Source of the DNA: Endozoicomonas numazuensis
GTDB lineage: Bacteria; Pseudomonadota; Gammaproteobacteria; Pseudomonadales; Endozoicomonadaceae
Length of the DNA stretch: 64,000 nt
Assembly: GCF_000722635.1 (NCBI RefSeq)
Contig: NZ_JOKH01000002.1
Span: forward strand, 180,731-244,730
Direction: 5' to 3'
Part shown: positions 2,269 to 59,951 of the stretch, in pieces
Position numbering within the stretch: position 1 is the first letter of the stretch
How the letters are laid out: each line of letters starts with the position of its first letter
The notes under the pieces: model-generated
Databases searched by the model: none
Told to the model about the DNA's origin: nothing
The model's input: only the letters and a program-made list of their open reading frames with translations
Made by a program: the position numbers and the translations under genes

Positions 2269-3307
2269 CCAACCGTCCTTCTATACACTCTAAAATCTCC
2301 CTCAATACTGCGGTTGCAAAGCAGCCTTTTGGCAAAGAAAATTCAAGCTGTATATCACTTTCTGACAACCAGTCCCAAGTCATGGAAGCCGGGATCAACC
2401 GAATTGCCCTTCTTTCTTGCTTCAAGCCTTCTTTCTCCAAGCCTTCACACAACAACAGATTTCGACCTGCAACTTCTTCTTCCATCTTTCTGCAAACTGA
2501 ATCTGAAAGCAACTCCCCTCTGCCCCACATGGGAGCCGTCAGAGAAACCTCTCCAACCTCTATTCTTGCCATTAGATCCTGATCATGATCACGAAGAATC
2601 AGACTACCACTGTCTTGAAAGCCAGGAACATCACCCTCAAGATAACGAGTCCACACCTGTTGTGATACTCGTTCTGACAGCACCTGATTAAAGAGCCAGG
2701 ATCGAGCTGCAGACAAATAGATCGAGCGTTTGTTTCTGTGGGCTTTAAAGCTGCCAGAAAACATCAACATGGCTCGCTCAACATTGATGCCCTCATGACC
2801 AAATCGCTGTCCACCAAAATAATTGGGCACTCCCTGGCTGGCAACCAGCTTTAAACGCTCTTCTAACAACTCATGACTGACAGTGAGCCCCCTTAGCGTA
2901 ATGATAAATCGATTACCCTTTAACGCACCGGTTTTTAACTTTTTACCATGGCGGGTAGCAGCAAGAATCTCTAAAGACTCATTATTCAGACCGGCCCACT
3001 CAGGTGAGTCCTGCCCAGGCAACCAAACACTAAACCACTGACGTGTAATCCCATATCTATCCTTGCGGCCCGCATAACTCACGGAAGAGCGCTTAACACC
3101 CGCAAACCTGGCCAGCTGTCCTGCCACCCAATCTGTGTTTTCACCTGTTTTTTGAACATTGATATATGAATGCTCACCTTCACCATCAGGTATGAAAGGC
3201 AATTCTTCTTCAACAATGAAATCATCAGGTACAGCTTTGAATGAGCATTGTCCCAGAGGACCACCCCAGGCATAAGCCCAGGCTGAGGTATAAGAAACTT
3301 GATTCAT
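2249..3307 (-). CDS. truD: tRNA pseudouridine(13) synthase TruD
   Basis: Isomerises U13 of tRNA(Glu) to pseudouridine. The catalytic motif AGRKDRYGITRQ places the nucleophile at D83. The VPNYFGGQRFG motif and a long inserted TRUD domain follow, and 352 residues is the usual length. The 3' end overlaps surE by 20 bases. Upstream, a 312-base spacer containing a decayed repeat separates truD from ispF, which are adjacent in many relatives. No strong ribosome site is visible before the ATG. Confidence 0.96.
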   Translation of the reverse strand: MNQVSYTSAWAYAWGGPLGQCSFKAVPDDFIVEEELPFIPDGEGEHSYINVQKTGENTDWVAGQLARFAGVKRSSVSYAGRKDRYGITRQWFSVWLPGQDSPEWAGLNNESLEILAATRHGKKLKTGALKGNRFIITLRGLTVSHELLEERLKLVASQGVPNYFGGQRFGHEGINVERAMLMFSGSFKAHRNKRSIYLSAARSWLFNQVLSERVSQQVWTRYLEGDVPGFQDSGSLILRDHDQDLMARIEVGEVSLTAPMWGRGELLSDSVCRKMEEEVAGRNLLLCEGLEKEGLKQERRAIRLIPASMTWDWLSESDIQLEFSLPKGCFATAVLREILECIEGRLDENTAK

Positions 3308-3619
3308 TAAACAATAATCTTTTAAGAGAAACGCGTGCTAATCCACATAGACATTTGGATGAAATAAATCAGAAAACCCAGATTCCCCTAAAGTCCTCAG
3401 AAACCGAAATAGCCATGAAACTGTCGGGCCGAAGCTTTAGAGAATAGAATTCAGTAGATCGTTTGCAGCCTTGGAAACGGGGCAGTCCACGTTAAATTTG
3501 TGTAAAAGTTGGCTAAATCAAGCCATTTAACAAAAAAACAGCCTCTTTTACTGGGCTTCAGACAGATATCATCTTAATTCCAGCAAGATTCTGGATACCA
3601 TTAAAAATAACCAACATTA
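3308..3619. other. truD-ispF spacer, 312 bases, no gene
   Basis: No supported coding region. The spacer contains a decayed family A repeat end (see 3418-3460) and otherwise AT-rich sequence. No clear terminator or promoter was found. The usually compact ispF-truD junction seems to have been opened by repeat insertion. Confidence 0.6.
3418..3460. repeat. Decayed family A (MITE-like) repeat end
   Basis: The stretch with AAGCTTT, then GAG, AT and AATTCAGTAGA aligns with one end of the complete copy at 38282-38447 (read on its reverse strand), at about three quarters identity over 42 bases by eye. It also resembles the left part of the copy at 48508-48671. The rest of the element cannot be followed with confidence. 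Confidence 0.5.
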
Positions 3620-4126
3620 TTACAGGGTATTCAGCTGCTGAGAAGTTCCCAGAAGAGCGACAGCATGGACAGCGATTCCTTCCTTTCGCCCGGTATAACC
3701 CAACTTTTCTGTCGTTGTAGCTTTTACATTGACGGCCCCGGTCTCAACCTGTAGATCCTTGGCAATATTTCCACGCATTACTGGAATGTGAGGAGCCATT
3801 TTCGGTGCCTGAGCAACAATCGTGCTATCGAGATTAATAACCTGATACCCATTCTCATGAATTAATGCCACCACATGCCTCAGCAACTGTCGGCTATCGA
3901 TACCTTTATATCGGGAGTCTGTATCGGAAAAATGCTGTCCAATATCACCCAGTGCCGCAGCACCCAGTAACGCATCACAGACTGCATGCAGGAGAACATC
4001 ACCATCAGAGTGAGCTAACAACCCGTAATCGTAATCTATGCTGACTCCACCCAATATCACTTTACTGTCTGCTAAAGCTTCATCTGAAAATCGATGAACA
4101 TCAAAGCCATGACCTATTCTCATCAT
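3620..4126 (-). CDS. ispF: 2-C-methyl-D-erythritol 2,4-cyclodiphosphate synthase
   Basis: MEP-pathway enzyme that cyclises CDP-methylerythritol 2-phosphate with loss of CMP. The N-terminal GHGFDVHRF supplies metal ligands D9 and H11. The [20 protein letters not shown] segment supplies the third His, and [15 protein letters not shown] is the C-terminal signature. Length 168 is slightly above the usual 156-160. The ATG overlaps the ispD stop in an ATGA arrangement, so the two are translationally coupled. With ispD, dxr and uppS it puts four isoprenoid or undecaprenyl genes in this window. Confidence 0.97.
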
Positions 4127-4857
4127 ACTGTCTCAATCAGTTTGGCTTGCTGTTGAATATAAAGGGCTGCAAGCGCAAGGTCTGCCCCTCGGGTCACTTT
4201 GATATTATCGCCATGCCCCTCAACCATAAGAGGCTTGAATCCTGAATGCTCAATAGCACTGGCCTCATCGGTAACCGGCATCTCATCATCAAGCGCTTTT
4301 TTCAAGGCATCATAAAGCAACTTCATTCGAAACATTTGTGGTGTCAAAGCATGCCAGAGCGCATCCCTGTCCACTGTCTCTGTGACTTCACCTACTGACG
4401 AAGTTCGCTTCATGGTATCTCTTACCGGTATCCCCAGAAGACCACCCACTGTATGATCAGACAACTGTTTGACCAACCACTCAAGATCTGCGTGACGAAT
4501 GCATGGGCGCGCAACATCATGAACCATAACCCAATCTTCCGCATCTGCCAGTTCTGATAATGCCTTCAGTCCATTTAACACGGAGTGGTAGCGCTCGCTG
4601 CCTCCCTGAACCAGTAAAATCCGCGAATCTCTAAGCAACTCTATATCGGTGTAATACTCATCCTCTGCACCGATTACAACAATCAACTTCTCCAGAACAG
4701 TAAAATCCAGAAGGCGCTCCAGAGTATGCTCCATCAAGGTCCGACCATGGATTTCAAGATACTGTTTGGGAATATCGCTCTGCATACGACGACCTACGCC
4801 TGCAGCAGGAACAATTGCCCAAAAACGGGGTTGATGAGAATTTCTCGCAGTACTCAC
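4123..4857 (-). CDS. ispD: 2-C-methyl-D-erythritol 4-phosphate cytidylyltransferase
   Basis: Transfers CMP from CTP to methylerythritol 4-phosphate, the third MEP-pathway step. The nucleotidyltransferase loop PAAGVGRRM (residues 17-25) and following K31 bind CTP, and [11 protein letters not shown] carries the conserved metal-binding Asp. Length 244 is typical. The stop overlaps ispF by four bases. The 282-base spacer upstream, before ftsB, holds no gene; ftsB-ispD are usually closer together, so ispD may have its own promoter, though none is clear by eye. Confidence 0.96.
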
Positions 4858-5139
4858 ATTGCCACCTACGAAAGATCATTAGAAACCTGTATCTGACAGG
4901 CTATGAATCAAAGAGCCAAAGTCGGAAATACCGCTTACCCCGAACTATAAAAATAGCTGTAAAGAACAGAATAGCGGTAATTTCTCAGAACTCTGATCAA
5001 GAAATATACCTCAACACTCTACTTATTAAATTAACACTACTGTTCCATTTAATAGACATGATTATTCTGACTTCAAACTGACTTTCATTCGGTTGGCCGT
5101 TTGTAAAAACGAGACACGCCCCCGTAAATACAGGAACTG

Positions 5140-5676: not shown

Positions 5677-7654
<1,978 letters not shown>

Positions 7655-48689: not shown

Positions 48690-48724
48690 CATCAGGGCGT
48701 CATCGCCCTGATGCATCCTTTTTG
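48690..48724 (+). terminator. Rho-independent terminator of the retropepsin operon
   Basis: CATCAGGGCG pairs exactly with CGCCCTGATG through a TCAT loop, followed by CATCC and T5. It lies just beyond the repeat element and was presumably closer to the operon end before the insertion. Confidence 0.8.
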
Positions 48725-48748
48725 CATCTCACTTTGAGTCGTATTGAC

Positions 48749-49414
48749 ATGCCAAATATCGAACTGATCAGCTTCAAGCTCTGTCCGTTTGTTCAACGCT
48801 CTGTCATTACTCTTCTGGAAAAGAACATCCCATTTGATATTACCTATATCGACCTGGATGATAAGCCAGACTGGTTCCTGACTATCTCGCCCACGGGTAA
48901 AGTGCCGCTTTTAAGAATTGACCCGAATCAGATTCTCTTTGAGTCTGCGGTCATCAACGAGTATCTCGACGAAATTACACCGCCGTCATTGCACCCGATA
49001 GATCCATTTGAGAAAGCTCAGCATCGCGCCTGGATCGAGGTTGGCTCAAACCTCTTGATGACCAGTTATCGTTTCACTGTGGCTTCAGATCAAGAAAAAC
49101 AGGATCACCAAAGAGTGTTATTGATCAACCTGTTGAGAAAGCTGGAAGCAGAGTTAACCGGTAAAGTATTTTTCGATGGCAAACGTTTCACACTCGTGGA
49201 CGCTGCTATTGCCCCGGTCTTCCGCTGGATAGAAATTCTTGATCGACGACTGGCAACAGGTTTGTTAAATGAGGCCCCGGGACTGTCCCCCTGGAGTAGC
49301 AACCTGCTGAATCGCCCCTCAGTAAAAAATTCAGTGGTCAGTGACTTTGAAGCGTTATACATCAGCCGGCTGATTGATAGTGACTCCCAGTTGCGCTTCA
49401 ACCTGAACACCTGA
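48749..49414 (+). CDS. Glutathione S-transferase family protein
   Basis: Cytosolic GST-like protein. The N-terminal thioredoxin fold contains LISFKLCPFVQRSVITLLEK, with Cys-Pro at the active-site helix. The cis-Pro segment GKVPLLRID and the substrate segment LFESAVINEYLDE complete that domain. An all-helical C-terminal domain includes DGKRFTLVDAAIAPVFRWIE. At 221 residues it resembles omega/zeta-type or SspA-like GSTs. The start at 48749 is preferred; a TTG nine codons earlier overlaps the terminator T tract. It is a single gene with a terminator hairpin behind it. Substrate unknown. Confidence 0.87.
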   Translation: MPNIELISFKLCPFVQRSVITLLEKNIPFDITYIDLDDKPDWFLTISPTGKVPLLRIDPNQILFESAVINEYLDEITPPSLHPIDPFEKAQHRAWIEVGSNLLMTSYRFTVASDQEKQDHQRVLLINLLRKLEAELTGKVFFDGKRFTLVDAAIAPVFRWIEILDRRLATGLLNEAPGLSPWSSNLLNRPSVKNSVVSDFEALYISRLIDSDSQLRFNLNT

Positions 49415-49838: not shown

Positions 49839-52031
49839 ATGATTTTTATAATAAAAAATGAAAAGCTGTATCAACGTCAAGGAGGACTGCCTGATTTGCA
49901 GGTTCCATTGACCTATTCATCCTGTTCTGCGAGAGCAGCCGTCTTCATCAGGGCTTTGCTGGTAACACTGCTGTCCATGCTTTTCGGCCAGACGACACTG
50001 GCTGCCCCTGTTGCTGAATCTTCGCCATCAGGATCCGTAGAGCTTTCCAGCTACCTCACCCCAGTGACCGCACCGGAAGCCATTCTGTCCGGAAAACAGC
50101 CCAATGCCACCGACCGCTGGTACAAGCTTCGTCTGACATTGAACCACTCTTTCAATTCCGACTGGTTACTGGTTTTCAGAAGAACACCCCACAACAAACT
50201 GGATATTTTCACTCCTTCTGCCAACGGCTACCGAATCACTTCACTGGGTACTGGCAGTCATAGCCGAAAATCAGATCCACGAGTACTGAAACTTAACCTG
50301 CCTGACGACAAGATACATGACCTTTATATACGGGTAGACAACTCAATACCTAACAGACTGAACCCAAGCCTGTGGCCCCAGTCACTCTACACTCTGGACG
50401 AGTACAGGAATCAGGCATTTTCAGCATCATTACTGGCTCTGCTGCTCCTTTTTCTGGTCAGCACAGCAGCTGTGATGATTTATACCAGACATCAATCCTA
50501 TCTGCTGCTTACTGCCCACCTGCTTGCAACAACCACTCTTGTCCTGATGTACCAGGGTGAAATTTTCCGGATGATCAATTGGTCCGGAGATCCCGGACTT
50601 TGGGTTTTAACCATGACGGTGATCAGTCTGGTCTCCGCTCTGGCGTGTTATAAAAATCTGGGATTACTGGCCCTGTATACCCCCAGAGCTGATCGACTGA
50701 TGCTCTGGCTCTGTTGTTTATCAGTCGGATTTGTTTTCAGTTTTTTCATGACTCATCAAATCCTGTTGCTGAACGCTGCCTTTTTAATGATTGCCCTGAC
50801 TGCTGCCCTATTAACCTCCAGCCTGCTGACCATCTTTGCTCAAGGGGTACGACCGGCCAAGCTGGCATTACCGGTCATGGCCACCCTGTCCCTTGCCCTG
50901 TTCAGTAGCTGGGTGTCAACGGAATGGCCCAGAGCCATTCCCAGCCAGGCAGAGCTGGCGCTGATCGCCCTGCAATCTCTATTGATTACAGGGCTTTATT
51001 GGGTTAACCGGAAACACAAACATCGCCAGGCTATTTCTATTAACCTGGTGACGACTCACAATGATAAACGACGGGTATTTGATTCAGCCCTGCGAAAACA
51101 CCTTCAGGCACCTGCGAACGCCCTGATGGATGAAAAAGCCATTCGTGAGCGTATTCTAGAAACACTCGATGCTGTGATGCCCGGCACCCCCTCGATGATT
51201 CTGGTCAAAAGAAAAAGTCACTGGGATATCGACAGTCACTACCCAAAGGCCGCCCAGATACTGAAAAGCAGCATTGACAGTATTGAAGAGGAGCTCATCA
51301 GCATTATCAGCTCTGACCAGGAACACCATGTCCGACTGGAGGACAGAAACGGGGTAAAATACTGGGTATTCCTGCTTCATACTGAGGAAAACCATCACAC
51401 CCTGCTGGTCGTTTCTCCAGGAAGTCAGCGTAAAAAGTCCTTAAAGTGGCAGCAAATCACAGACATCAGTACCCATGCCCGAACGCTGTTTCAGGCAAAC
51501 CAGCAAACTCGTTTCTGGAAGTTACAGGCCAGCCTGGATTCATTAACCGGTCTTCTGAATCGAAGAGCCTTTATGAATGAAGCGACTGAGATTGTTCATC
51601 GAAAAGATTCCGGACAGAGCCAGTCATGCCTGATTTTTATTGATATTGATGACTTCAAACAGATCAATGATCGCTTTGGTCACCCTGCAGGTGACAAAGT
51701 ACTCTCCGAGCTGGCCAATCGTATGCGAAAAGAACTGCGTCAGCAGGATCTCATCGCTCGTTATGGGGGTGAAGAGTTCGTTGTTCTCCTGCCACAAACC
51801 AACGCCGTACGAGGCGTGCAGATAGCCGAACGACTCAGAAACTCAGCCTCACTGTATCAAGGTGGGCCTGTCCCTCTCAGTATCAGTCTTGGCATTGCTG
51901 TCACCGGCCTGAATACTGACACTCTTGATAAACTTCTCCAGGAAGCAGACGACGCACTTTATGAAGCCAAACACTCTGGCAAGAACCGGGTCTGCAGGGC
52001 GCCCTCGTGTGAAGATATACGACTAGCATAA
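49839..52031 (+). CDS. Membrane diguanylate cyclase (7TMR-DISM plus GGDEF)
   Basis: Predicted c-di-GMP synthase. A hydrophobic leader (about residues 36-56) precedes a periplasmic beta-rich domain (about 65-180) of the DISM extracellular type. Seven or so transmembrane helices follow (about 190-390), then a GAF-like stretch and a C-terminal GGDEF domain. The signature is YGGEEF, with G643-G644-E645-E646-F647. The product-inhibition site RQQD (R634, D637) lies five residues before it, so both catalysis and feedback look intact. GGAG precedes the ATG at good spacing. Some 30 residues lie before the leader, so a later start is possible. No phosphodiesterase is nearby. Confidence 0.9.
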   Translation: MIFIIKNEKLYQRQGGLPDLQVPLTYSSCSARAAVFIRALLVTLLSMLFGQTTLAAPVAESSPSGSVELSSYLTPVTAPEAILSGKQPNATDRWYKLRLTLNHSFNSDWLLVFRRTPHNKLDIFTPSANGYRITSLGTGSHSRKSDPRVLKLNLPDDKIHDLYIRVDNSIPNRLNPSLWPQSLYTLDEYRNQAFSASLLALLLLFLVSTAAVMIYTRHQSYLLLTAHLLATTTLVLMYQGEIFRMINWSGDPGLWVLTMTVISLVSALACYKNLGLLALYTPRADRLMLWLCCLSVGFVFSFFMTHQILLLNAAFLMIALTAALLTSSLLTIFAQGVRPAKLALPVMATLSLALFSSWVSTEWPRAIPSQAELALIALQSLLITGLYWVNRKHKHRQAISINLVTTHNDKRRVFDSALRKHLQAPANALMDEKAIRERILETLDAVMPGTPSMILVKRKSHWDIDSHYPKAAQILKSSIDSIEEELISIISSDQEHHVRLEDRNGVKYWVFLLHTEENHHTLLVVSPGSQRKKSLKWQQITDISTHARTLFQANQQTRFWKLQASLDSLTGLLNRRAFMNEATEIVHRKDSGQSQSCLIFIDIDDFKQINDRFGHPAGDKVLSELANRMRKELRQQDLIARYGGEEFVVLLPQTNAVRGVQIAERLRNSASLYQGGPVPLSISLGIAVTGLNTDTLDKLLQEADDALYEAKHSGKNRVCRAPSCEDIRLA

Positions 52032-52281: not shown

Positions 52282-54414
52282 ATGGCTCTCCAACTTGTCA
52301 CCCGGCTGATCAAGGCCGCTGGAGACTTGATCAAGCTCAACAAACAAGCACTCAAGTTTATCTGTCTGGGTTTAGCGCTTTCTATCACGATTACGTTTAT
52401 TGCAGGTAAAGCCTACCAGTCCTGGGATAACGATCCCCAGCGAGGGGCTATAGGCATTGAAAACGGTGAATTTAATGAGAGCTACTCAACCCCTGTCTAC
52501 CTGAATCAGGGTTGGTCTGCTTCAGACAGCCTGTGGTACTACAACACAACTCAGGGTTCAGCACTGCTACCCTATGACTTTTACCTGTCCTTAGAACAGA
52601 AAAATTCTCAAGTGCCTGTTCGTGACAACATGAACATGGACAAATACCGTTACCTGCCTCAAAAACCGACTTTCTTTAATCCCGATGGACTGGCAGTCGG
52701 TTTTGTTAAGGAAACCTATCAAGGCAAGGAATACATGGGCTACACCTGTGCAGCCTGCCACACCTCCCAGGTGAACTTTCAGGGCAAAGGGATTCGAATT
52801 GATGGCGGACCTGCCATGGCAGATATGGTTGGCTTCCTGACCAGCCTGGAAGCCGCCATGAAACAGACAATCAATGAGAATGAAAAAAGAGAGCGCTTTG
52901 TCAAGAATGTGCTGGCTCTCAAAAATGATTATAAAAACGAAGAACAGGTCATGGCCGACCTGGAAAAGTGGACTGAAGCCACTCAGCTCTATAACACCAT
53001 TAACCACAGCAAGGTTAAGTACGGTCATGCCCGACTGGACGCTTTTGGCCGCATATACAACCGTGTACTTCAATACGTTCTGAGCAAAGAAAATGTTAAA
53101 GATGCTCTGATTGCTGTCACATCCCCCTCGGGCAGACACATACTGTCTCAACCTGAAGTGGACAAAGTACTGGAAGGCGTCAACGAAACCATTCTGGGCA
53201 ACGATGACTTCTCGTTGATCATCGAACGACTGATGTCAAAAGAGCCCGGGTATCCAGGCCTATCTGTTAAGGAAACGCTATACGTCAGAAATGCTCTCTT
53301 TAACGAGCCCAATGCACCGGTCAGTTACCCTTTCCTATGGGATATTGCTCAATCAGATTATGTACAGTGGAATGGTTTGGCAGGTAACAGCGGCCTCGGA
53401 CCACTGGGACGTAACACAGGAGAAGTCATTGGTGTGTTCGGAATTCTGGATTGGACAGCCACTGACACTGGCTTCAGCCTGTCTTCCCTGCTAACCGGAC
53501 AGGATCACAAACGCCAACACATTAATTTCAAATCGTCCATCAATCTCGTCAATCTGCAAAGACTGGAATCTCACCTTAAAAGTCTTCAGTCACCTCAGTG
53601 GCCTGAAGAGATTCTGGGTAGCATTGATCAGGAAAAAGCCGCTCGCGGCCAGCGCGTTTATACCCAGTATTGCCAGTCCTGCCACGAAGTTATTGATCGC
53701 AGCAACCTGGACAGAAAAGTCATCGCACAAATGTCCGGACTCGAACACATTGGCACCGACCCAGCTATGGCGGAAAACAGTGTTCTCTACAAAGGCAAGT
53801 CCGGTAATTTTGAACACACTTATCAGGACGTTGACGTAGGTACCGTTCTTATCACTGAAACTGCGCCGGTCGTACAGACGCTGACATCGGCAACAAAAGG
53901 CGTGGTAGCGACTCCGGATGCCGACAAATGGTGGATTCGCAGAGTGGCTGACTGGTTCTATACCGTAGGCCTTTCCTTCTTTAACAATGATATCAAGGCC
54001 AGCGTCAAGAATGGCAATTACAACCCTGACACCACGGCCAACCCCTATAACTCACTCCTGGCTTACAAAGCCAGACCCTTGAACGGAATCTGGGCAACCG
54101 CGCCTTATCTTCACAATGGCTCAGTACCCACACTGTATGACTTGTTATTACCCGTGAAGAGAGAAGGCGATCCGGATGAAGGTGCTTATCGCCCCGATAC
54201 CTTTATGGTGGGCAGCCGTGAATTTGATCCTGTCAGAGTCGGCTTCCGCTCCGAAGGCTATCAAGGTACACGCTTCATTACTCAGGGTCGCGGAAACCTG
54301 AATACGGGTCACGAATACGCAGCAGGCAGAACAGCACAAATGAACGGAACCGTTCTACCTGCACTGGATGACCAACAACGCTGGGATCTTATCGAGTACA
54401 TAAAAACTCTATAG
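52282..54414 (+). CDS. Diheme c-type cytochrome, RoxA/MauG superfamily (first of pair)
   Basis: Exported or membrane-anchored protein with one N-terminal hydrophobic segment (about residues 24-41). There are two covalent heme sites: CAACH (C156, C159, H160) and CQSCH (C464, C467, H468). The C-terminal segment WATAPYLHNGSVPTLYDLL is the hallmark of diheme peroxidase/RoxA-like proteins, and the long N-terminal heme domain resembles RoxA/RoxB rubber oxygenases. At 710 residues it is somewhat larger than RoxA. AGGGA lies eight bases before the ATG. The cytochrome P450 gene follows 88 bases later. Oxygenase and peroxidase functions are both possible; substrate unknown. Confidence 0.85.
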   Translation: MALQLVTRLIKAAGDLIKLNKQALKFICLGLALSITITFIAGKAYQSWDNDPQRGAIGIENGEFNESYSTPVYLNQGWSASDSLWYYNTTQGSALLPYDFYLSLEQKNSQVPVRDNMNMDKYRYLPQKPTFFNPDGLAVGFVKETYQGKEYMGYTCAACHTSQVNFQGKGIRIDGGPAMADMVGFLTSLEAAMKQTINENEKRERFVKNVLALKNDYKNEEQVMADLEKWTEATQLYNTINHSKVKYGHARLDAFGRIYNRVLQYVLSKENVKDALIAVTSPSGRHILSQPEVDKVLEGVNETILGNDDFSLIIERLMSKEPGYPGLSVKETLYVRNALFNEPNAPVSYPFLWDIAQSDYVQWNGLAGNSGLGPLGRNTGEVIGVFGILDWTATDTGFSLSSLLTGQDHKRQHINFKSSINLVNLQRLESHLKSLQSPQWPEEILGSIDQEKAARGQRVYTQYCQSCHEVIDRSNLDRKVIAQMSGLEHIGTDPAMAENSVLYKGKSGNFEHTYQDVDVGTVLITETAPVVQTLTSATKGVVATPDADKWWIRRVADWFYTVGLSFFNNDIKASVKNGNYNPDTTANPYNSLLAYKARPLNGIWATAPYLHNGSVPTLYDLLLPVKREGDPDEGAYRPDTFMVGSREFDPVRVGFRSEGYQGTRFITQGRGNLNTGHEYAAGRTAQMNGTVLPALDDQQRWDLIEYIKTL

Positions 54415-54502
54415 CCCGTCAAAGCGCTCAAAAACAAGATTTGTTAAAAGTGCCAGGACTGTTCAGTCAGCCCTGACACTGATTGTAAGAGAAAAGGACC
54501 TT

Positions 54503-55888
54503 ATGACCACACCCATCGCTGAAAGCAGCATTGCCAACCTGTTTTCCTCGAATAAAGATTATCTGGCCGAATACGACAGCCTGCCTGATGCTGAAAAGTA
54601 CCCTCAGGTCCTCAAGTGGATGAAGAGTGAGCCTCTACCATTTTTCGCACAACTCAGGACAGAACGCCCGATTCTGGTCACCCCGGAATGCACACTGGTA
54701 TCACATTTCACCGATGTGCGTGACATGCTGCAAATGCCAAAGATTTTTACGGTAGATCTCTATAAGCCAAAAATGGGCGTCACCGAAAAAGATCCCGGCT
54801 ACCTGATGGCACACGACGATGATGCCCTTCACTATCGTGAAAAATCCCTTATGCAGGGTATGCTGAATCGAAATGACCTGCCAGCCATTCGCAAGTTGAT
54901 AGCAGAATCCGGTGCTGACATTCTCAAGAATGCCAATAACCACATTGAGATCGTTAATCAATACTGTCGCATGGTCCCGGCCATACTGGTACAGGACTAT
55001 TTTGGCCTGGATGAAGTCGAAAAAGAGTCGCTGATCGAATGGTCTTTCTGGAACCAGTTTGATGTCTTCCATAACCAGCCTTTTGACCTGAACTCACCTG
55101 AGAAAAGCCAGCATATCGTCGATAAGCACAGCGAAGTCACCGTTAAATTACAGAGTTACATGACAAAAACCATGGTGCGTAAGCTGGCTATAGTGAAGTT
55201 GGATGAAACCAAGAACCTGCTCTTGATTGGCTGGCGTATTATCAAGGGTGTTATCAATAAACTCCTTGGAAAGAAAACGCCTGTTGCTAAAGACGACATT
55301 ATCAGTCGAATGCTGCGCAGTAGCTTTGCCGAGCAAGTCGACTTTGACCTGGTTCGCATAGGCGTCAATGCCGGCGGTTTGTTGATTGGTGCTATAGAAA
55401 CAACCTCACAGGCAGTGTCTCAAGTCATTGAATTCATTCTTGAGCGTCCAGAGCTGTTAAACAAGGCCAAAACCCTGGCGGCAGACTCCGACACCAAAGC
55501 GTTTGATGACCTCGTATGGGAAGCTCTGCGTTTTGTACCCATTAGTCCTTATATGTTCCGTCAGATGTCAGAAGATTATGAGCTGGCCAAGGGTACACCC
55601 CATGCTACTACAATCAAGAAAGGCACCAATGTTCTGGCTTTAACCCAGTCAGCTATGTTTGACCCATATGCCTACGACCAACCCGACACCTTCTCCCCGG
55701 GCAGAAACTTTTATCACAACTTTACCTTTGGCTTTGCTTCACACGACTGTCTGGGAAAATACATTGGTATGGAAATGATACCCGAAATGGTTAGGCAGGT
55801 TATGCTAATGCCTGGCATCAGCAGTGACGGAAGTATTGATTACAAGGACGGTCCATTCCCTGAACAGTACGAGCTTCAGTGGAAATAA
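54503..55888 (+). CDS. Cytochrome P450
   Basis: Heme-thiolate oxygenase. The heme loop FTFGFASHDCLGKYIG gives C416 as proximal ligand; the usual FGxGxHxC has Ala in place of the second Gly. The I-helix oxygen-activation motif GAIETT (E299-T300-T301) and the ExxR pair E340-R343 are present. No signal peptide or N-terminal anchor is seen, but a hydrophobic insertion near residues 235-260 (NLLLIGWRIIKGVINKLLG) may associate with membrane. AAAAGGA precedes the ATG. Its neighbours on both sides are diheme cytochromes of the same strand. No ferredoxin or reductase gene is present, so its electron donor is unclear, or it uses peroxide. Confidence 0.93.
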   Translation: MTTPIAESSIANLFSSNKDYLAEYDSLPDAEKYPQVLKWMKSEPLPFFAQLRTERPILVTPECTLVSHFTDVRDMLQMPKIFTVDLYKPKMGVTEKDPGYLMAHDDDALHYREKSLMQGMLNRNDLPAIRKLIAESGADILKNANNHIEIVNQYCRMVPAILVQDYFGLDEVEKESLIEWSFWNQFDVFHNQPFDLNSPEKSQHIVDKHSEVTVKLQSYMTKTMVRKLAIVKLDETKNLLLIGWRIIKGVINKLLGKKTPVAKDDIISRMLRSSFAEQVDFDLVRIGVNAGGLLIGAIETTSQAVSQVIEFILERPELLNKAKTLAADSDTKAFDDLVWEALRFVPISPYMFRQMSEDYELAKGTPHATTIKKGTNVLALTQSAMFDPYAYDQPDTFSPGRNFYHNFTFGFASHDCLGKYIGMEMIPEMVRQVMLMPGISSDGSIDYKDGPFPEQYELQWK

Positions 55889-55945
55889 CCCGACTTTGTT
55901 CATGCCGTATCACAGGGAAGTGATAGACAACGAGGATAATCAGGG

Positions 55946-57787
55946 ATGAAGCTTAATTTTTTCGGCATATTGATTCTGGCCATAGCCGCTGGCGCTTACT
56001 GGTTATTTAATGTCTATCTTGGCGGAGAACAGTTACACGCTCCTCCGCCTCCCCCTGTCGTACGTGACGTACCTGATGAATGGCCCGAAGCTCGACAAAA
56101 ACGACAGAGCGCTATTAATCAGCATCTGGATCAATACCAGGTAGCCTATCAACGCTTTGCCAATTTCCCGACCAGTGAAACCGACGGCATCCCCTTTATT
56201 ATCCTAAAACTGCTGCCTGTTGTTGCTCCTGAGTTCTGGGGTAAAGGCGATGACTTTCTTGAAGTCATGGGTCTCTTCCAGGATGAAAGACTGAAAGGCT
56301 CCCCCTTACCCCGAGGTATTGGCTTCAGTGGCTTATCTCGCACGGAACCCCTGGGTAATATCGATTATTCATCGTTTGCCTGCGGTGGATGCCATATTGG
56401 TCGGGTACGATTGCCTGACGGCTCTATTCAGTATTTGGATGGTGGCATTAATACCCAGTTCAACGTGATTGGTTTTAGAAAACGATTAACCCAGACACTC
56501 ACAAAGATCTATCAGGGCGAAACGGATCCGGAAAAGAAACAGACGATACTCACCGAAACCTTCTTGAATGCTCTGGAACAGAGTCAAACCAGCGACCCTC
56601 ATTTTTTCTATAAAAACTATCAGTTTGAGGGTCGTCACTTTGATGCAGAGTATGAAAAAGCCCAGATCACCCTATTCAGGCAGCAAGCTGCCACTGTGAT
56701 TCCTGATTTCGCCTCCCATGCAGAGCAGGTATACAAAGGCTGGGGCATTCTGGTGGATCGCCTCTACCCGGAAATTAAATCGGATATCATGTCCGGCTTT
56801 CCCGGAATGGAAGACGCTATAGCCTTTAATGCTGTTAACGCTTATTTCAATCTCCAACAGACTCCCGTTATCAGCTGGTTTGCACCTTTGGCCCTCCCCT
56901 CTGTTCCAGGGATTACCGACATCATGGCGGTCTGGTATCAGGATGCCCATGACCCACGCTGGAACGAAGAACAGTCGGACCTGATCAATGGTGGCGGTCA
57001 GTGGAATGGCCATATACCTCTGCCCATTTATAAGAACATCGCCGCCCAGCTGACCCTCGGGTTCGATAACATTGATATCAGGGTTTCAGCTTTTTCAGAA
57101 GAGCTATTAAAGAAACTTCCACCCGCGCCCTACCCTTTTGACGTGGATATTAGCCTGGCTAAAAAAGGTCAGAAACTGTTCACTGAAAATTGCGCCAGTT
57201 GCCACCAGCCCAATAATGGCAAAGTGTATAAGAGCCTTGGAACCAATATGGGACGGGCAAAAATTGCTGGGACTCTGATCACACTGGGAGCTAGAAGCAG
57301 CTTTACTTCCGATACCAACTGTTCCGTGACCACTGAGGTTGAAATGTACGGCAACACGGTAAAACCCTGTGCTGAATACAGAGGCGTTTCCTTAACTGGG
57401 AAAAGTCGTCTGGCCATGACCTCCCCCAAACTCCACGATGGCTATAATGCCCTGCCGCTGGTAGGAATATGGGCTCAGGCACCTTATCTTCACAATGGTT
57501 CTGTTCCTACCCTCTATCACTTGCTGATGCCAGGCACACGCCCTGACCGTTTTATGAAAGCACGCCTCGACTATGATCCGGTTAAAGTCGGATACTCCTG
57601 GCAGCCTGACCTGAAACCCTATCACGGCCAGGAAGAAGGCTACCTCTTCAAACCTGCCAGCTCCCCAGCCATCAGCAACAAGGGACACGATACTGACATT
57701 GTTGACGGTGAAAGAACTTACCGACTTGACTGGAGCAAGAATGAAGCAGGGGCGATGGCCATCATTGAGTATCTCAAGACACTTTGA
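55946..57787 (+). CDS. Diheme c-type cytochrome, RoxA/MauG superfamily (second of pair)
   Basis: An N-terminal hydrophobic segment (about residues 5-25) and a Pro-rich linker precede two heme sites: CGGCH (C146, C149, H150) and CASCH (C416, C419, H420). WAQAPYLHNGSVPTLYHLL matches the same motif in the first cytochrome, and both end in EYLKTL or EYIKTL. The chain is 613 residues and only distantly similar to the first over the rest, so this is an old duplication or two recruited paralogues. It starts 57 bases after the P450 stop and probably shares its transcript. Two extra Cys (NCSV and KPCAEY, near 458 and 476) could form a disulfide. Confidence 0.85.
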   Translation: MKLNFFGILILAIAAGAYWLFNVYLGGEQLHAPPPPPVVRDVPDEWPEARQKRQSAINQHLDQYQVAYQRFANFPTSETDGIPFIILKLLPVVAPEFWGKGDDFLEVMGLFQDERLKGSPLPRGIGFSGLSRTEPLGNIDYSSFACGGCHIGRVRLPDGSIQYLDGGINTQFNVIGFRKRLTQTLTKIYQGETDPEKKQTILTETFLNALEQSQTSDPHFFYKNYQFEGRHFDAEYEKAQITLFRQQAATVIPDFASHAEQVYKGWGILVDRLYPEIKSDIMSGFPGMEDAIAFNAVNAYFNLQQTPVISWFAPLALPSVPGITDIMAVWYQDAHDPRWNEEQSDLINGGGQWNGHIPLPIYKNIAAQLTLGFDNIDIRVSAFSEELLKKLPPAPYPFDVDISLAKKGQKLFTENCASCHQPNNGKVYKSLGTNMGRAKIAGTLITLGARSSFTSDTNCSVTTEVEMYGNTVKPCAEYRGVSLTGKSRLAMTSPKLHDGYNALPLVGIWAQAPYLHNGSVPTLYHLLMPGTRPDRFMKARLDYDPVKVGYSWQPDLKPYHGQEEGYLFKPASSPAISNKGHDTDIVDGERTYRLDWSKNEAGAMAIIEYLKTL

Positions 57788-58046: not shown

Positions 58047-59951
58047 ATGCCCGCTCTGTTCAGTCGTCGGCGACAGCAACGGAATGACGATGACCTCCAG
58101 CTTGAAGAACGAGATTTAAGCTGGCTGGAAAAAGTCGCACGTGCTCCACATCAGGAGCCCTGGAGTGTCACCATATTACAGTACGCCTGGACCGCAGGCC
58201 CTGTAACGCTTCTGGCCGCTTTTGCTGGCTATTATATTGGCTACGGCACTATGATGCCGCTGGACAGAACCCTTTACTTCATTGGCTATTCCATTGTTGC
58301 CATTGGTATGGGTCTGTTCACCAAATTGATGTACAACGTGACACATGGGCGAAAAGTCAATAAAGACAAAAACAACCTCCTCAGTATCATAGACCGAATT
58401 CCTGAAATTATTTATATGGTCCGGGATCTGGCCCAGCGCAACATGGCTGAAGATGCACGACGCATTCATTCTGCTGGCATTCTGCTCCGAAAACTGGATC
58501 TTGGCCCTGAGTGGGTCTCTACCGCAGTAGAAGATATCACCGGCGATCCCAAGCTGGCCCGCAAAGCTGAACAGATTGAAATTTTTCGCCGGGCGGGTCT
58601 TTATCACAGAATGCGAGACATTGTTCATGAAGTGTCTGAAGAGACTGAGCGATATCATAAAGAACTCAAGGAGCTTCACCCCCGTATTGCCGAAGCCCTG
58701 AAAAGCCGACTTTCCGGTATTGTCGCAAGACCCCATGAAGGACAACCCAGAGAGCCTCTCTTTATTGAACGAATTCTTACCGCCAGTGAGCGAGACAATG
58801 AAGAATTAATGACACTCCACGATGTCGAAGAAATCCTGATACTGTGTTTTGAACTGATTTGCGGCCGGGAAATATCCTGGTTAAAAATAGAATATACCGG
58901 ACGCTGGGATCTGGCCAAGGCCCTGGACAAACTGGAAGAAGAACGCAATGATTTTCGTATCAGCCGGGCCAGGGTGTACTCCCGACTCAAGGCACTGACG
59001 ACCTGGCTGCATAATGTTGATGTCCAGAATGACATTATTACCGGTCACGGCCTCAGTCCTCAGAAGTTGCTGACTGCAGCCACTGAATCTCTCGACAACC
59101 TGAGCCTTCAGGTTCGACAGGCCAGAGACCTGACCCGTAAAACCGGCAAGCATGTCATGGCTCTGAACATCAAGCGCAAACAACTGGATAAAGCCATTCA
59201 GCTTTATAATGAAGCTCATCGCGCTTATCTCAAGCAGGGTCGTGACAGCGACAAACTCAAACGAGCCCTGAAGCACTGGCAAAAACTATCGACGCTTTAC
59301 CAGCAAAATCCGGCTGAAAACTTCAAGCGAAGCCTGACCATTTCAGAACAAAGCATTGAGCTGGATGATGACACCCGAATGGAAGTCGCCAACCGTCTGG
59401 AAGAGTTCCTGAAAGAATCCCGGTTACGCAGGGAAAGTTATCGAACCCACTCCCCTTTGTCGCCTGCCCAGAAAGATCTGACAGAAACTCGCGCCAGAGA
59501 AGTAGCCATCGAAGTGGCCACTATTCTTGACCCCTATATTCATCTGCATGACCCGCAAATTCAAAGAGCCATCGAAAGTTCCAATGCATCCAGTCTGGCT
59601 TTTCTTGAACCGGGCATGAGCGCCAAAACCAAGGCAACCCTGGGAGAAGCTCTGGCTGCGGATGTTGACAAAAATCTATCGGCCAGTGCAGAAAAGCTGG
59701 CTCAGAACCTGATTCGTTACTATCGAGTCCCTCTCAGTGAGCGAACCATCAATTTCCTGGTGCAAACCTATCAGGCTGATCTGGAAAGATTACAGTTTAT
59801 CGCCCAGTTCGAAAGCCCAATGAGTGCCCGCTATTCATTGGATAACATTTCCCCCATCGAAGTCCCACCCGCAAAAAACAATTGGCAAATTGACCTGTAT
59901 AACGCAAATAAAATCATCAGCAAATACAGCTCTGCTACTATTCATAGCTGA
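58047..59951 (+). CDS. Hypothetical membrane protein, two N-terminal helices and long helical domain
   Basis: I do not recognise a family. The first 35 residues are charged. Two transmembrane helices (about 46-68 and 76-95) are followed by some 540 residues of predominantly helical, charged sequence, with coiled-coil-like stretches (for example RARVYSRLKALTTWLHNVD and LDKAIQLYNEAHRAYLKQ). No catalytic motif stands out. It begins 259 bases after the second diheme cytochrome on the same strand, so it may or may not be linked to that cluster. Codon use looks like the neighbours, and the length makes a chance frame very unlikely. Confidence 0.85.
   Translation: MPALFSRRRQQRNDDDLQLEERDLSWLEKVARAPHQEPWSVTILQYAWTAGPVTLLAAFAGYYIGYGTMMPLDRTLYFIGYSIVAIGMGLFTKLMYNVTHGRKVNKDKNNLLSIIDRIPEIIYMVRDLAQRNMAEDARRIHSAGILLRKLDLGPEWVSTAVEDITGDPKLARKAEQIEIFRRAGLYHRMRDIVHEVSEETERYHKELKELHPRIAEALKSRLSGIVARPHEGQPREPLFIERILTASERDNEELMTLHDVEEILILCFELICGREISWLKIEYTGRWDLAKALDKLEEERNDFRISRARVYSRLKALTTWLHNVDVQNDIITGHGLSPQKLLTAATESLDNLSLQVRQARDLTRKTGKHVMALNIKRKQLDKAIQLYNEAHRAYLKQGRDSDKLKRALKHWQKLSTLYQQNPAENFKRSLTISEQSIELDDDTRMEVANRLEEFLKESRLRRESYRTHSPLSPAQKDLTETRAREVAIEVATILDPYIHLHDPQIQRAIESSNASSLAFLEPGMSAKTKATLGEALAADVDKNLSASAEKLAQNLIRYYRVPLSERTINFLVQTYQADLERLQFIAQFESPMSARYSLDNISPIEVPPAKNNWQIDLYNANKIISKYSSATIHS

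Follow-up and report, generated by a model that had tools for sequence, protein, structure and literature searches.

Known heme dioxygenase–P450 systems and the Endozoicomonas cluster

Coupling of a heme dioxygenase with a cytochrome P450 is already known from fungi, plants and animals. Described here is a bacterial pairing with an exchanged heme partner, found around a three-gene cluster of Endozoicomonas numazuensis (assembly GCF_000722635.1, contig NZ_JOKH01000002.1, positions 180,731 to 244,730 of the forward strand; the whole 64,000-nucleotide stretch is called the window). In this cluster a P450 gene is situated between the genes of two diheme c-type cytochromes, D1 and D2. The near-constant occurrence, in the genomes examined, of a heme oxygenase or peroxidase as a neighbor of, or in fusion with, relatives of this P450 suggests a two-enzyme lipid-oxidation pathway in bacteria. 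Among the matches listed for open-access titles and abstract openings, no diheme–P450, peroxidase–P450 or DyP–P450 pair was described.

The fungal DOX-CYP enzymes, comprising linoleate diol synthases (LDS), epoxy alcohol synthases and allene oxide synthases (AOS), combine a heme dioxygenase with a P450 without a reductase, as is the case here. The likeness extends to relatives of the window P450: a rhizobial partner belongs to the same peroxidase–cyclooxygenase superfamily and carries the YRWH motif, and three relatives are P450–peroxidase fusions. The differences concern both architecture and sequence. The system described here is bacterial and mostly unfused; the window genes are separate rather than forming the single polypeptide of the fungal enzymes, and the P450 is fused to a DyP, not to a cyclooxygenase-type domain, only in genomes G572, G462 and G598. 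In the window, a c-type diheme protein without relation to the fungal dioxygenase takes the partner's place, and the P450 retains the acid–alcohol pair of the I-helix. A similar parallel, proposed here, is offered by plant CYP74, PGIS and TXS, in which a P450 stands beside a dioxygenase without a redox partner; the retained acid–alcohol pair of the window P450 again marks a difference, and no sequence kinship was shown.

For the diheme proteins, a described counterpart is the PA2077/PA2078 pair of Pseudomonas aeruginosa. According to the accessible part of the publication, PA2077 is a RoxA-like diheme protein acting as oleate 10S-dioxygenase, its Gln-Trp pair is given as F301Q and W251, and PA2078 is the 7,10-diol synthase ('FadCcp') (PMC4496055). 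As there, D1 and D2 are paired RoxA-like dihemes, taken to be periplasmic, with a PY(F/L)HNGSVP motif, a putative C-terminal axial His and a QW pair that may correspond, judged by published positions, to the Gln-Trp pair of PA2077. The spacing of the heme motifs differs, being 245/235 residues in PA2077/PA2078 versus 308 in D1 and 270 in D2, and the accessible text on the PA2077/PA2078 operon mentions no P450. RoxA and RoxB are likewise described without a P450 partner in the accessible part of their publication (PMC6311187). Alkene-cleaving members of the DyP family are also known, as stated in the accessible parts of two reports (PMC7181223, PMC7866418).

The cluster consists of three open reading frames (ORFs) on the plus strand, separated by 88 bases (D1/P450) and 57 bases (P450/D2), with the following features:

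52282..54414, plus strand: D1, diheme c-type cytochrome of the NF040606 family, 710 amino acids (ORF, Pfam, NCBIfam)
52747..52761, plus strand: D1 N-terminal heme motif CAACH (residues 156-160); C156, C159 and H160 in 54/54 aligned D1 sequences
53365..53370, plus strand: D1 Q362-W363, proposed equivalent of the inter-heme Gln-Trp pair of PA2077; 54/54, the equivalence inferred from published positions, not from alignment
53671..53685, plus strand: D1 C-terminal heme motif CQSCH (464-468); C464, C467 and H468 in 54/54
54103..54129, plus strand: D1 MauG-type motif PYLHNGSVP (H611), within PF21419 and aligned to RoxA; H611 in 54/54
54310..54312, plus strand: D1 H677 within GHE, which may serve the C-terminal heme as its second axial ligand; 54/54, aligned with RoxA H641
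54503..55888, plus strand: P450 of the peroxidase/oxygenase-linked clade, 461 amino acids (ORF, Pfam, tree)
55397..55405, plus strand: P450 I-helix E299-T300-T301 (GAIETTSQ); E299 in 66/66, T300 in 65/66, T301 in 66/66
55520..55531, plus strand: P450 K-helix ExxR motif, EALR (340-343); E340 and R343 in 66/66
55721..55756, plus strand: P450 Cys loop, FGFASHDCLG region (C416); C416, H414 and G410 in 66/66
55946..57787, plus strand: D2, diheme c-type cytochrome of a family of its own, 613 amino acids (ORF, Pfam, NCBIfam)
56381..56395, plus strand: D2 N-terminal heme motif CGGCH (146-150); C146, C149 and H150 invariant in 23 rows
56999..57004, plus strand: D2 Q352-W353, a QW pair like that of D1; invariant in 23 rows
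57191..57205, plus strand: D2 C-terminal heme motif CASCH (416-420); C416, C419 and H420 invariant in 23 rows
57482..57508, plus strand: D2 MauG-type motif PYLHNGSVP (H516), within PF21419; H516 invariant in 23 rows
57686..57688, plus strand: D2 H581 within GHD, which may be an axial ligand to the C-terminal heme; invariant in 23 rows

An original prediction, made from the DNA sequence, had described three same-strand genes with these gaps, two different dihemes of the RoxA/MauG superfamily sharing APYLHNGSVPTLY, and a P450 with intact I-helix, ExxR and Cys loop. Coordinates, gaps and motifs were all reproduced, and, as had also been noted, the cluster has neither a ferredoxin nor a reductase gene beside it within the window.

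Conservation of the pairing among close relatives

To collect related loci, exact peptide patterns of the window P450 were matched against one genome per species (84,980 species), yielding 65 loci. Since the patterns derive from the window P450 itself, these are close relatives; 20 of the 65 are titled Nitrosomonas, and many are metagenome-assembled genomes (MAGs). Nearly all are proteobacterial (Endozoicomonas, Nitrosomonas, Methylobacter, Rheinheimera, Kiloniella, Zhongshania and others), with one Verrucomicrobiaceae MAG. D1 and D2 genes were called with hidden Markov models (HMMs) built from the sequences of this analysis. In 57/65 loci, no more than 600 bases separate the P450 from a D1 gene, which is upstream on the same strand in 56 and downstream in one; this argues for a neighborhood beyond chance. 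The count includes a broken copy (L030) and a copy ended by the contig edge (L021), and at two of the 65 loci the upstream DNA was too short to judge. Counting any type of diheme gene, 62 loci have one beside the P450 and three have none. All eight genomes without a P450-adjacent D1 (two of them on short contigs) carry an NF040606 gene above the cut-off elsewhere, and the divergent diheme protein adjoining the P450 of methanotrophs passes NF040606 in 4/4 cases. In the L030 MAG, D1 (2730-4987) is split into three separate reading frames beside the P450 and two D2-type genes.

At 11 of the 65 loci a D2 gene comes after the P450 at a distance of up to 1,000 bases, and the exact D1–P450–D2 order was found in six, four of which have two D2 copies. 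Among 50 of the 65 genomes that were searched for it, D2 is present in 21, in 10 of them solely away from the P450; one of the 21, Methylobacter tundripaludum (L197, 6746-10121), has its D2 interrupted by a DDE transposase gene.

A sample of 369 genomes, drawn evenly from the window's class, was searched for the P450 (E ≤ 1e-60) and D2 (E ≤ 1e-20); one genome is present in two samples (as G193 and G409, with the same places). The P450 was detected in four genomes and D2 in three, all among those four, while NF040606 was above its cut-off in 19, including all four P450-positive ones. By these counts, D2 occurs only together with the P450, and the window-type P450 only together with D1-type genes. 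Fifteen NF040606 loci of this sample were taken, 14 from genomes without a window-type P450, plus G071. A P450 of the wider clade is directly beside D1 in G141, G051 and G295, and in G071 the P450 is convergent to D1.

Clustering of the neighbors of the 65 loci revealed no other gene kind that stands out as co-travelling with the diheme–P450 pair. The largest other families, 5'-nucleotidase and Mut7-C, occur at 11 loci each, mostly in Nitrosomonas; they look like synteny of that group and were rejected as hints to a substrate. Also rejected were an SDR family (L022, L045, L055) and an S1-domain protein (L034-L036), which at three loci each are too few, and the neighbors of unlinked D2 genes, which vary by locus (10 proteins scanned). 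The 20 neighbors scanned with Pfam are of varied kinds, four being unmatched: nucleotidase, Mut7-C, SDR, S1 protein, phospholipase C, histidine kinase, multicopper oxidase, peptidase, TonB receptor, Macro, PhoD-like, MnmE, MlaC, GDT1, LysR and ClpB. No ferredoxin or ferredoxin reductase was found among these 20, which are a subset of all neighbors. At one locus (L198, 3353-3781), a gene of the MAPEG family, a family of eicosanoid and glutathione enzymes, lies immediately upstream of an unlinked D2.

Exchange of the heme partner in the wider P450 clade

Nine plasmid records carry a P450 relative at 31-35% identity, of which six were inspected, NC_010510 and NZ_CP087107 were judged by coordinates, and NZ_CP088281 was not judged. 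By coordinates, a diheme gene lies 1.4 kb upstream of the P450 in NC_010510 and NZ_CP087107. Two Methylobacterium plasmids have the order diheme, regulator, P450; the intervening helix-turn-helix regulator (L205, 6772-7911; L206, 6760-7899) has, in L205, a weak PAS match (20.8 bits against a cut-off of 23.1). In a Bradyrhizobium plasmid the diheme gene is 126 bases upstream of the P450, and an oleate hydratase gene (L209, 1105-2865) is located about 3 kb upstream of the pair.

The three remaining inspected plasmids, all rhizobial, have no adjoining diheme gene; an animal-type heme peroxidase gene overlaps or directly follows the P450. Two of these proteins match An_peroxidase with 152.9 and 150.3 bits (cut-off 25), and the third was assigned through 82% identity. 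A search of solved structures is led by prostaglandin G/H synthases (E 4.6e-53), and LLYRWH is retained in all three; YRWH is the tyrosyl-radical motif of fungal linoleate-diol synthase, as the accessible text of PMC4496055 has it.

To extend the analysis phylum-wide, the rhizobial P450 was used as a query (E ≤ 1e-30) on 398 genomes. Thirteen matched, and all 13 have a heme partner at most two genes away or fused: a diheme protein in four, a DyP in six and a P450–DyP fusion in three. The diheme cases are the Endozoicomonas genome itself, G568 (one gene between), G445 and G577. The DyP gene is adjacent in G671, G641 and G323, overlapping in G680, and separated by a patatin gene in G660 and by two genes in G754. 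The fusions, single frames of 1,408-1,456 amino acids in G572, G462 and G598 of one genus, have an N-terminal P450, a C-terminal DyP-type part and long middles without a Pfam match (L232, 3353-7579; L233, 5602-9837; L234, 5359-9729). DyP calls exceed the Pfam cut-off for at least one of the two DyP domains except in G680 (DyP_N, 26.7 against 27.5); solved-structure searches with three DyP partners returned DyP peroxidases (E 3.9e-51, 5.6e-30 and 9.8e-34), and the GxxDG Asp and proximal-His motif are retained in 9/9 DyP parts. In G660 a FadL-type porin gene adjoins the P450, giving a row of DyP, patatin-like phospholipase, P450 and FadL/TodX-type porin genes (L235, 2842-7894) that could possibly be a set for lipid release, oxidation and transport. 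In L231, a glutathione S-transferase gene (6663-7457) follows the DyP–P450 pair.

As a control, the other P450s of the 13 matched genomes were used; eight genomes have others, amounting to 39 loci, all included, and five have none. Stretches of about 6 kb each way, some shortened by contig ends, were searched with the partner HMMs (E ≤ 1e-4). A diheme, cyclooxygenase-like or DyP partner was found at 0/39 control loci versus 18/18 clade loci run alongside; the HMMs include the clade's own partners, which makes the positives not independent, and unusual peroxidases near the controls could escape them.

A quick tree of 81 P450s, 40 linked ones (including 18 of the 66 window-type rows) and 41 controls and others from the same genomes, places the 40 linked P450s in one clade with an SH-aLRT support of 100 and a long stem. 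The four partner labels require three changes, the minimum possible; rows L026 and L046 carry the diheme label although their NF040606 gene is not next to the P450 but at another genomic site. Cyclooxygenase-linked rows are nested among diheme-linked rows (support 95 and 98), the DyP group has a support of 76, several control rows are long, and in FastTree the fusion branch grouped with the outgroup at 0.648. The single clade with nested partner types points to one ancestral pairing that was inherited, followed by at least two partner exchanges. Adjacency within the clade is thus not a series of many independent events, and the exchanges are the informative ones. The analysis shows a conserved pairing, carried by a single P450 clade, with the partner exchanged among three unrelated heme-enzyme folds, including a fusion.

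Sequence features of the diheme proteins and the P450

D1 and D2 each match Pfam RoxA-like_Cyt-c (PF21419) with 67.9 bits (cut-off 26.7). With 613 bits, D1 clears the 150-bit cut-off of NCBIfam NF040606, 'di-heme-cytochrome C peroxidase', which D2 narrowly misses (126.3 bits). Both are far below the equivalog cut-offs of RoxA, RoxB and RoxC (1000/900/900), scoring 41.6/51.6/46.7 bits (D1) and 39.1/45.4/46.1 bits (D2), and their matches to RoxA/RoxB are limited to short stretches, mainly the C-terminal motif. A RoxA-type fold was found for D1. A Foldseek search with the D1 model returned nothing at E ≤ 0.001; RoxA H641, with which D1 H677 aligns, is a heme ligand according to the accessible text of PMC6311187. 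An hhalign comparison of D1 with D2 gave nothing outside the C-terminal 195 columns, and no equivalent of F317 was located. A hydrophobic N-terminal helix of D1 (21-47 in the predicted model) and a hydrophobic N-terminal stretch of D2 are read as putative membrane anchors.

No match to Pfam CCP_MauG at E ≤ 0.001 is listed for either protein, and with 613-710 amino acids they are unlike the short bacterial cytochrome c peroxidases and MauG (known Ccps being 35-40 kDa in the accessible part of PMC4496055). Since 99 of the 369 class genomes have a PF21419 match above the cut-off, the RoxA-like motif alone says little.

The P450 (Pfam p450, 55.3 bits, cut-off 22.8) has the Cys-ligand loop, the ExxR motif and the fold of its superfamily, and no signal peptide is visible in its sequence; it is therefore taken as cytoplasmic. 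Its predicted model (mean predicted local distance difference test, pLDDT, 84.9) has its best fold matches in structures of CYP109, CYP134, CYP126, EryF and BioI, which are reductase-dependent enzymes. The I-helix reads GAIETMSQ in 3/3 cyclooxygenase-linked P450s, and Pro replaces the acid in 9/9 DyP-linked ones (e.g., GAIPTTSK; GFVPTN or GFAPTN in the fusions). Judged by these residues, ordinary O2 chemistry is tentatively favored for the window P450 and peroxide chemistry for the DyP-linked P450s. CYP152 peroxygenases have Arg-Pro where the window P450 has the acid–alcohol pair (GAIETTSQ). Nor does it show the lost or altered pair of the hydroperoxide-isomerising P450s (CYP74, PGIS, TXS, fungal LDS/AOS); in the known isomerases the pair is altered, 8R/9R-AOS retaining the Thr, as far as the accessible part of PMC13049297 states.

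Proposed role and alternative explanations

We tentatively favor, at somewhat less than even confidence, a lipid-oxygenation module in which a heme oxygenase and its companion P450 would form an unfused bacterial counterpart of the fungal dioxygenase–P450 (oxylipin) enzymes. With the same reserve, the P450 lineage may have kept a lasting heme partner, exchanged at least twice among DyP, RoxA-like diheme and cyclooxygenase-like proteins with one fusion branch, and the pair may make and process lipid hydroperoxides in a widespread oxylipin-type pathway reaching ammonia oxidisers, methanotrophs, rhizobia and marine symbionts. All three partner folds belong to kinds of heme enzyme known to act on unsaturated hydrophobic molecules (RoxA and PA2077, cyclooxygenase-type dioxygenases, alkene-cleaving DyP), and the P450 stays constant. 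Two-step lipid oxygenation with an exchanged partner is the most economical account. Substrate, reaction, hydroperoxide intermediate, step order and transfer across the membrane are what we infer in the following scheme. D1, together with D2 where that gene exists, would be located at the periplasmic surface of the inner membrane. There it would oxygenate an unsaturated hydrophobic molecule with O2, the likeliest candidates being a fatty acid or a fatty acyl chain; the reaction would take place at the N-terminal heme, the C-terminal heme having an axial His pair. A membrane-soluble oxygenated product, probably a hydroperoxide, would then reach the cytoplasmic P450, which might isomerise it, use it as an oxidant or hydroxylate it again.

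Several points weigh against this proposal. The main difficulty is topology: the periplasm is the expected place of c-type dihemes and the cytoplasm that of the P450, which excludes direct hand-over, so the product would have to pass through the membrane or reside in it. H2O2 is the usual oxidant consumed by DyP enzymes, and the rhizobial cyclooxygenase-like proteins have, in 3/3, Asp at what we take, from pairwise alignment, to be the distal-His site. The window P450 retains the acid–alcohol pair of ordinary monooxygenases, D1-type genes also exist apart from the P450 (11 of the 15 NF040606 loci show none in stretches of 6-16 kb), and the lipid genes near the loci (oleate hydratase in L209, patatin and FadL in L235, MAPEG in L198) are single cases. 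No substrate or product was found for any member of this P450 clade. The kinship of D1/D2 to PA2077/PA2078 rests on the motif and the published description, not on a sequence alignment, and PA2078 is active with either heme His mutated (accessible part of PMC4496055), which means that heme chemistry does not necessarily follow from a diheme scaffold.

In another reading, unlikely though worth serious weight, the P450 would be an ordinary monooxygenase that precedes its partner or works independently of it, served by general ferredoxin and reductase; the partner would then oxidise the hydroxylated product with O2 or peroxide. The retained acid–alcohol pair (E299 in 66/66, T300 in 65/66) and the reductase-dependent enzymes heading the fold matches fit this reading, and FNR-type FAD_binding_6 domains in 9/10 genomes tested make a general electron supply possible. 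However, no ferredoxin or ferredoxin reductase occurs among the scanned or annotated neighbors, a subset of all neighbors, and the Pro in all DyP-linked members makes O2 activation look impaired there.

Peroxide management, in which the partner would remove peroxide from an uncoupled P450, or supply or control peroxide for it, with no shared organic substrate, appears rather improbable. DyP and NF040606, which make up two of the three partner kinds, carry peroxidase in their family names, and the conserved DyP residues (9/9) suit such a role. The dihemes, however, are RoxA-like rather than of the short cytochrome c peroxidase type and are expected in the periplasm; the rhizobial partner without the expected distal His should be a poor peroxidase; and none of the 39 control loci around other P450s of these genomes has a partner of this sort.

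The original prediction had proposed a two-stage oxidation, with attack at the cell surface or in the periplasm on a hydrophobic (isoprenoid or lipid) substrate and cytoplasmic hydroxylation of the product. It is supported in part, its pairing of a heme partner with the P450 having proved conserved. A catabolic version, in which RoxA/RoxB-like enzymes at the surface attack an isoprenoid or some other hydrophobic compound used for growth and cytoplasmic hydroxylation follows, seems quite improbable. D1 does have the RoxA fold, and two different dihemes recall the RoxA/RoxB synergy described in the accessible part of PMC6311187. On the other side, the RoxA/B/C models give 39-52 bits against cut-offs of 900-1000, no catabolic gene family is prominent among the 20 scanned neighbors, and the module occurs in ammonia oxidisers and methanotrophs. 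The window-type P450 is the sole P450 in 7/7 Nitrosomonas genomes (two of them MAGs) and in 12/15 tested genomes overall; a sole P450 with a diheme protein in autotrophic ammonia oxidisers argues for the cell's own lipids or signals as substrate, not rubber or xenobiotic breakdown.

That D1 or D2 is a MauG-like maturase of a protein partner, its P450 link being regulatory or historical, is very unlikely: the PYLHNGSVP motif is shared, but it is hard to explain how a protein-specific maturase was twice exchanged for an unrelated oxidoreductase while the P450 lineage persisted, the P450 is expected in a different compartment, and CCP_MauG gave no listed match at E ≤ 0.001.

If the lipid-oxygenation proposal is true, bacteria would follow the same scheme as the synthesis of prostaglandins in animals and of oxylipins in fungi, a dioxygenase acting before a P450, but with the partner swapped between unrelated folds; such a swap suggests a substrate or product common to the partners. 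It would also provide a function for the sole P450 of the tested Nitrosomonas genomes and for part of the 'di-heme-cytochrome C peroxidase' family.

Surroundings of the cluster in the window

The host genome (6.34 Mb, 31 contigs) has P450 matches at five places besides the cluster, and the nearest named relative of the window P450, at 92%, is from Endozoicomonas arenosclerae. A promoter and terminator scan was uninformative: it returned 7 and 8 sites, and shuffled sequences gave 7.6 and 6.2. Downstream of D2, an ORF of 634 amino acids (58047-59951) is 95% identical in E. arenosclerae (L012) and matches nothing in Pfam or NCBIfam at E ≤ 0.001. Immediately upstream of D1 is a GGDEF diguanylate cyclase gene with a 7TMR-DISMED2 sensor (49839-52031); among the 65 loci, L012, the nearest relative, is the only other one in which the order GGDEF then D1 was seen. 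Two genes upstream of D1, a glutathione S-transferase is encoded (48722-49414), comparable with the one that follows the DyP–P450 pair in L231.

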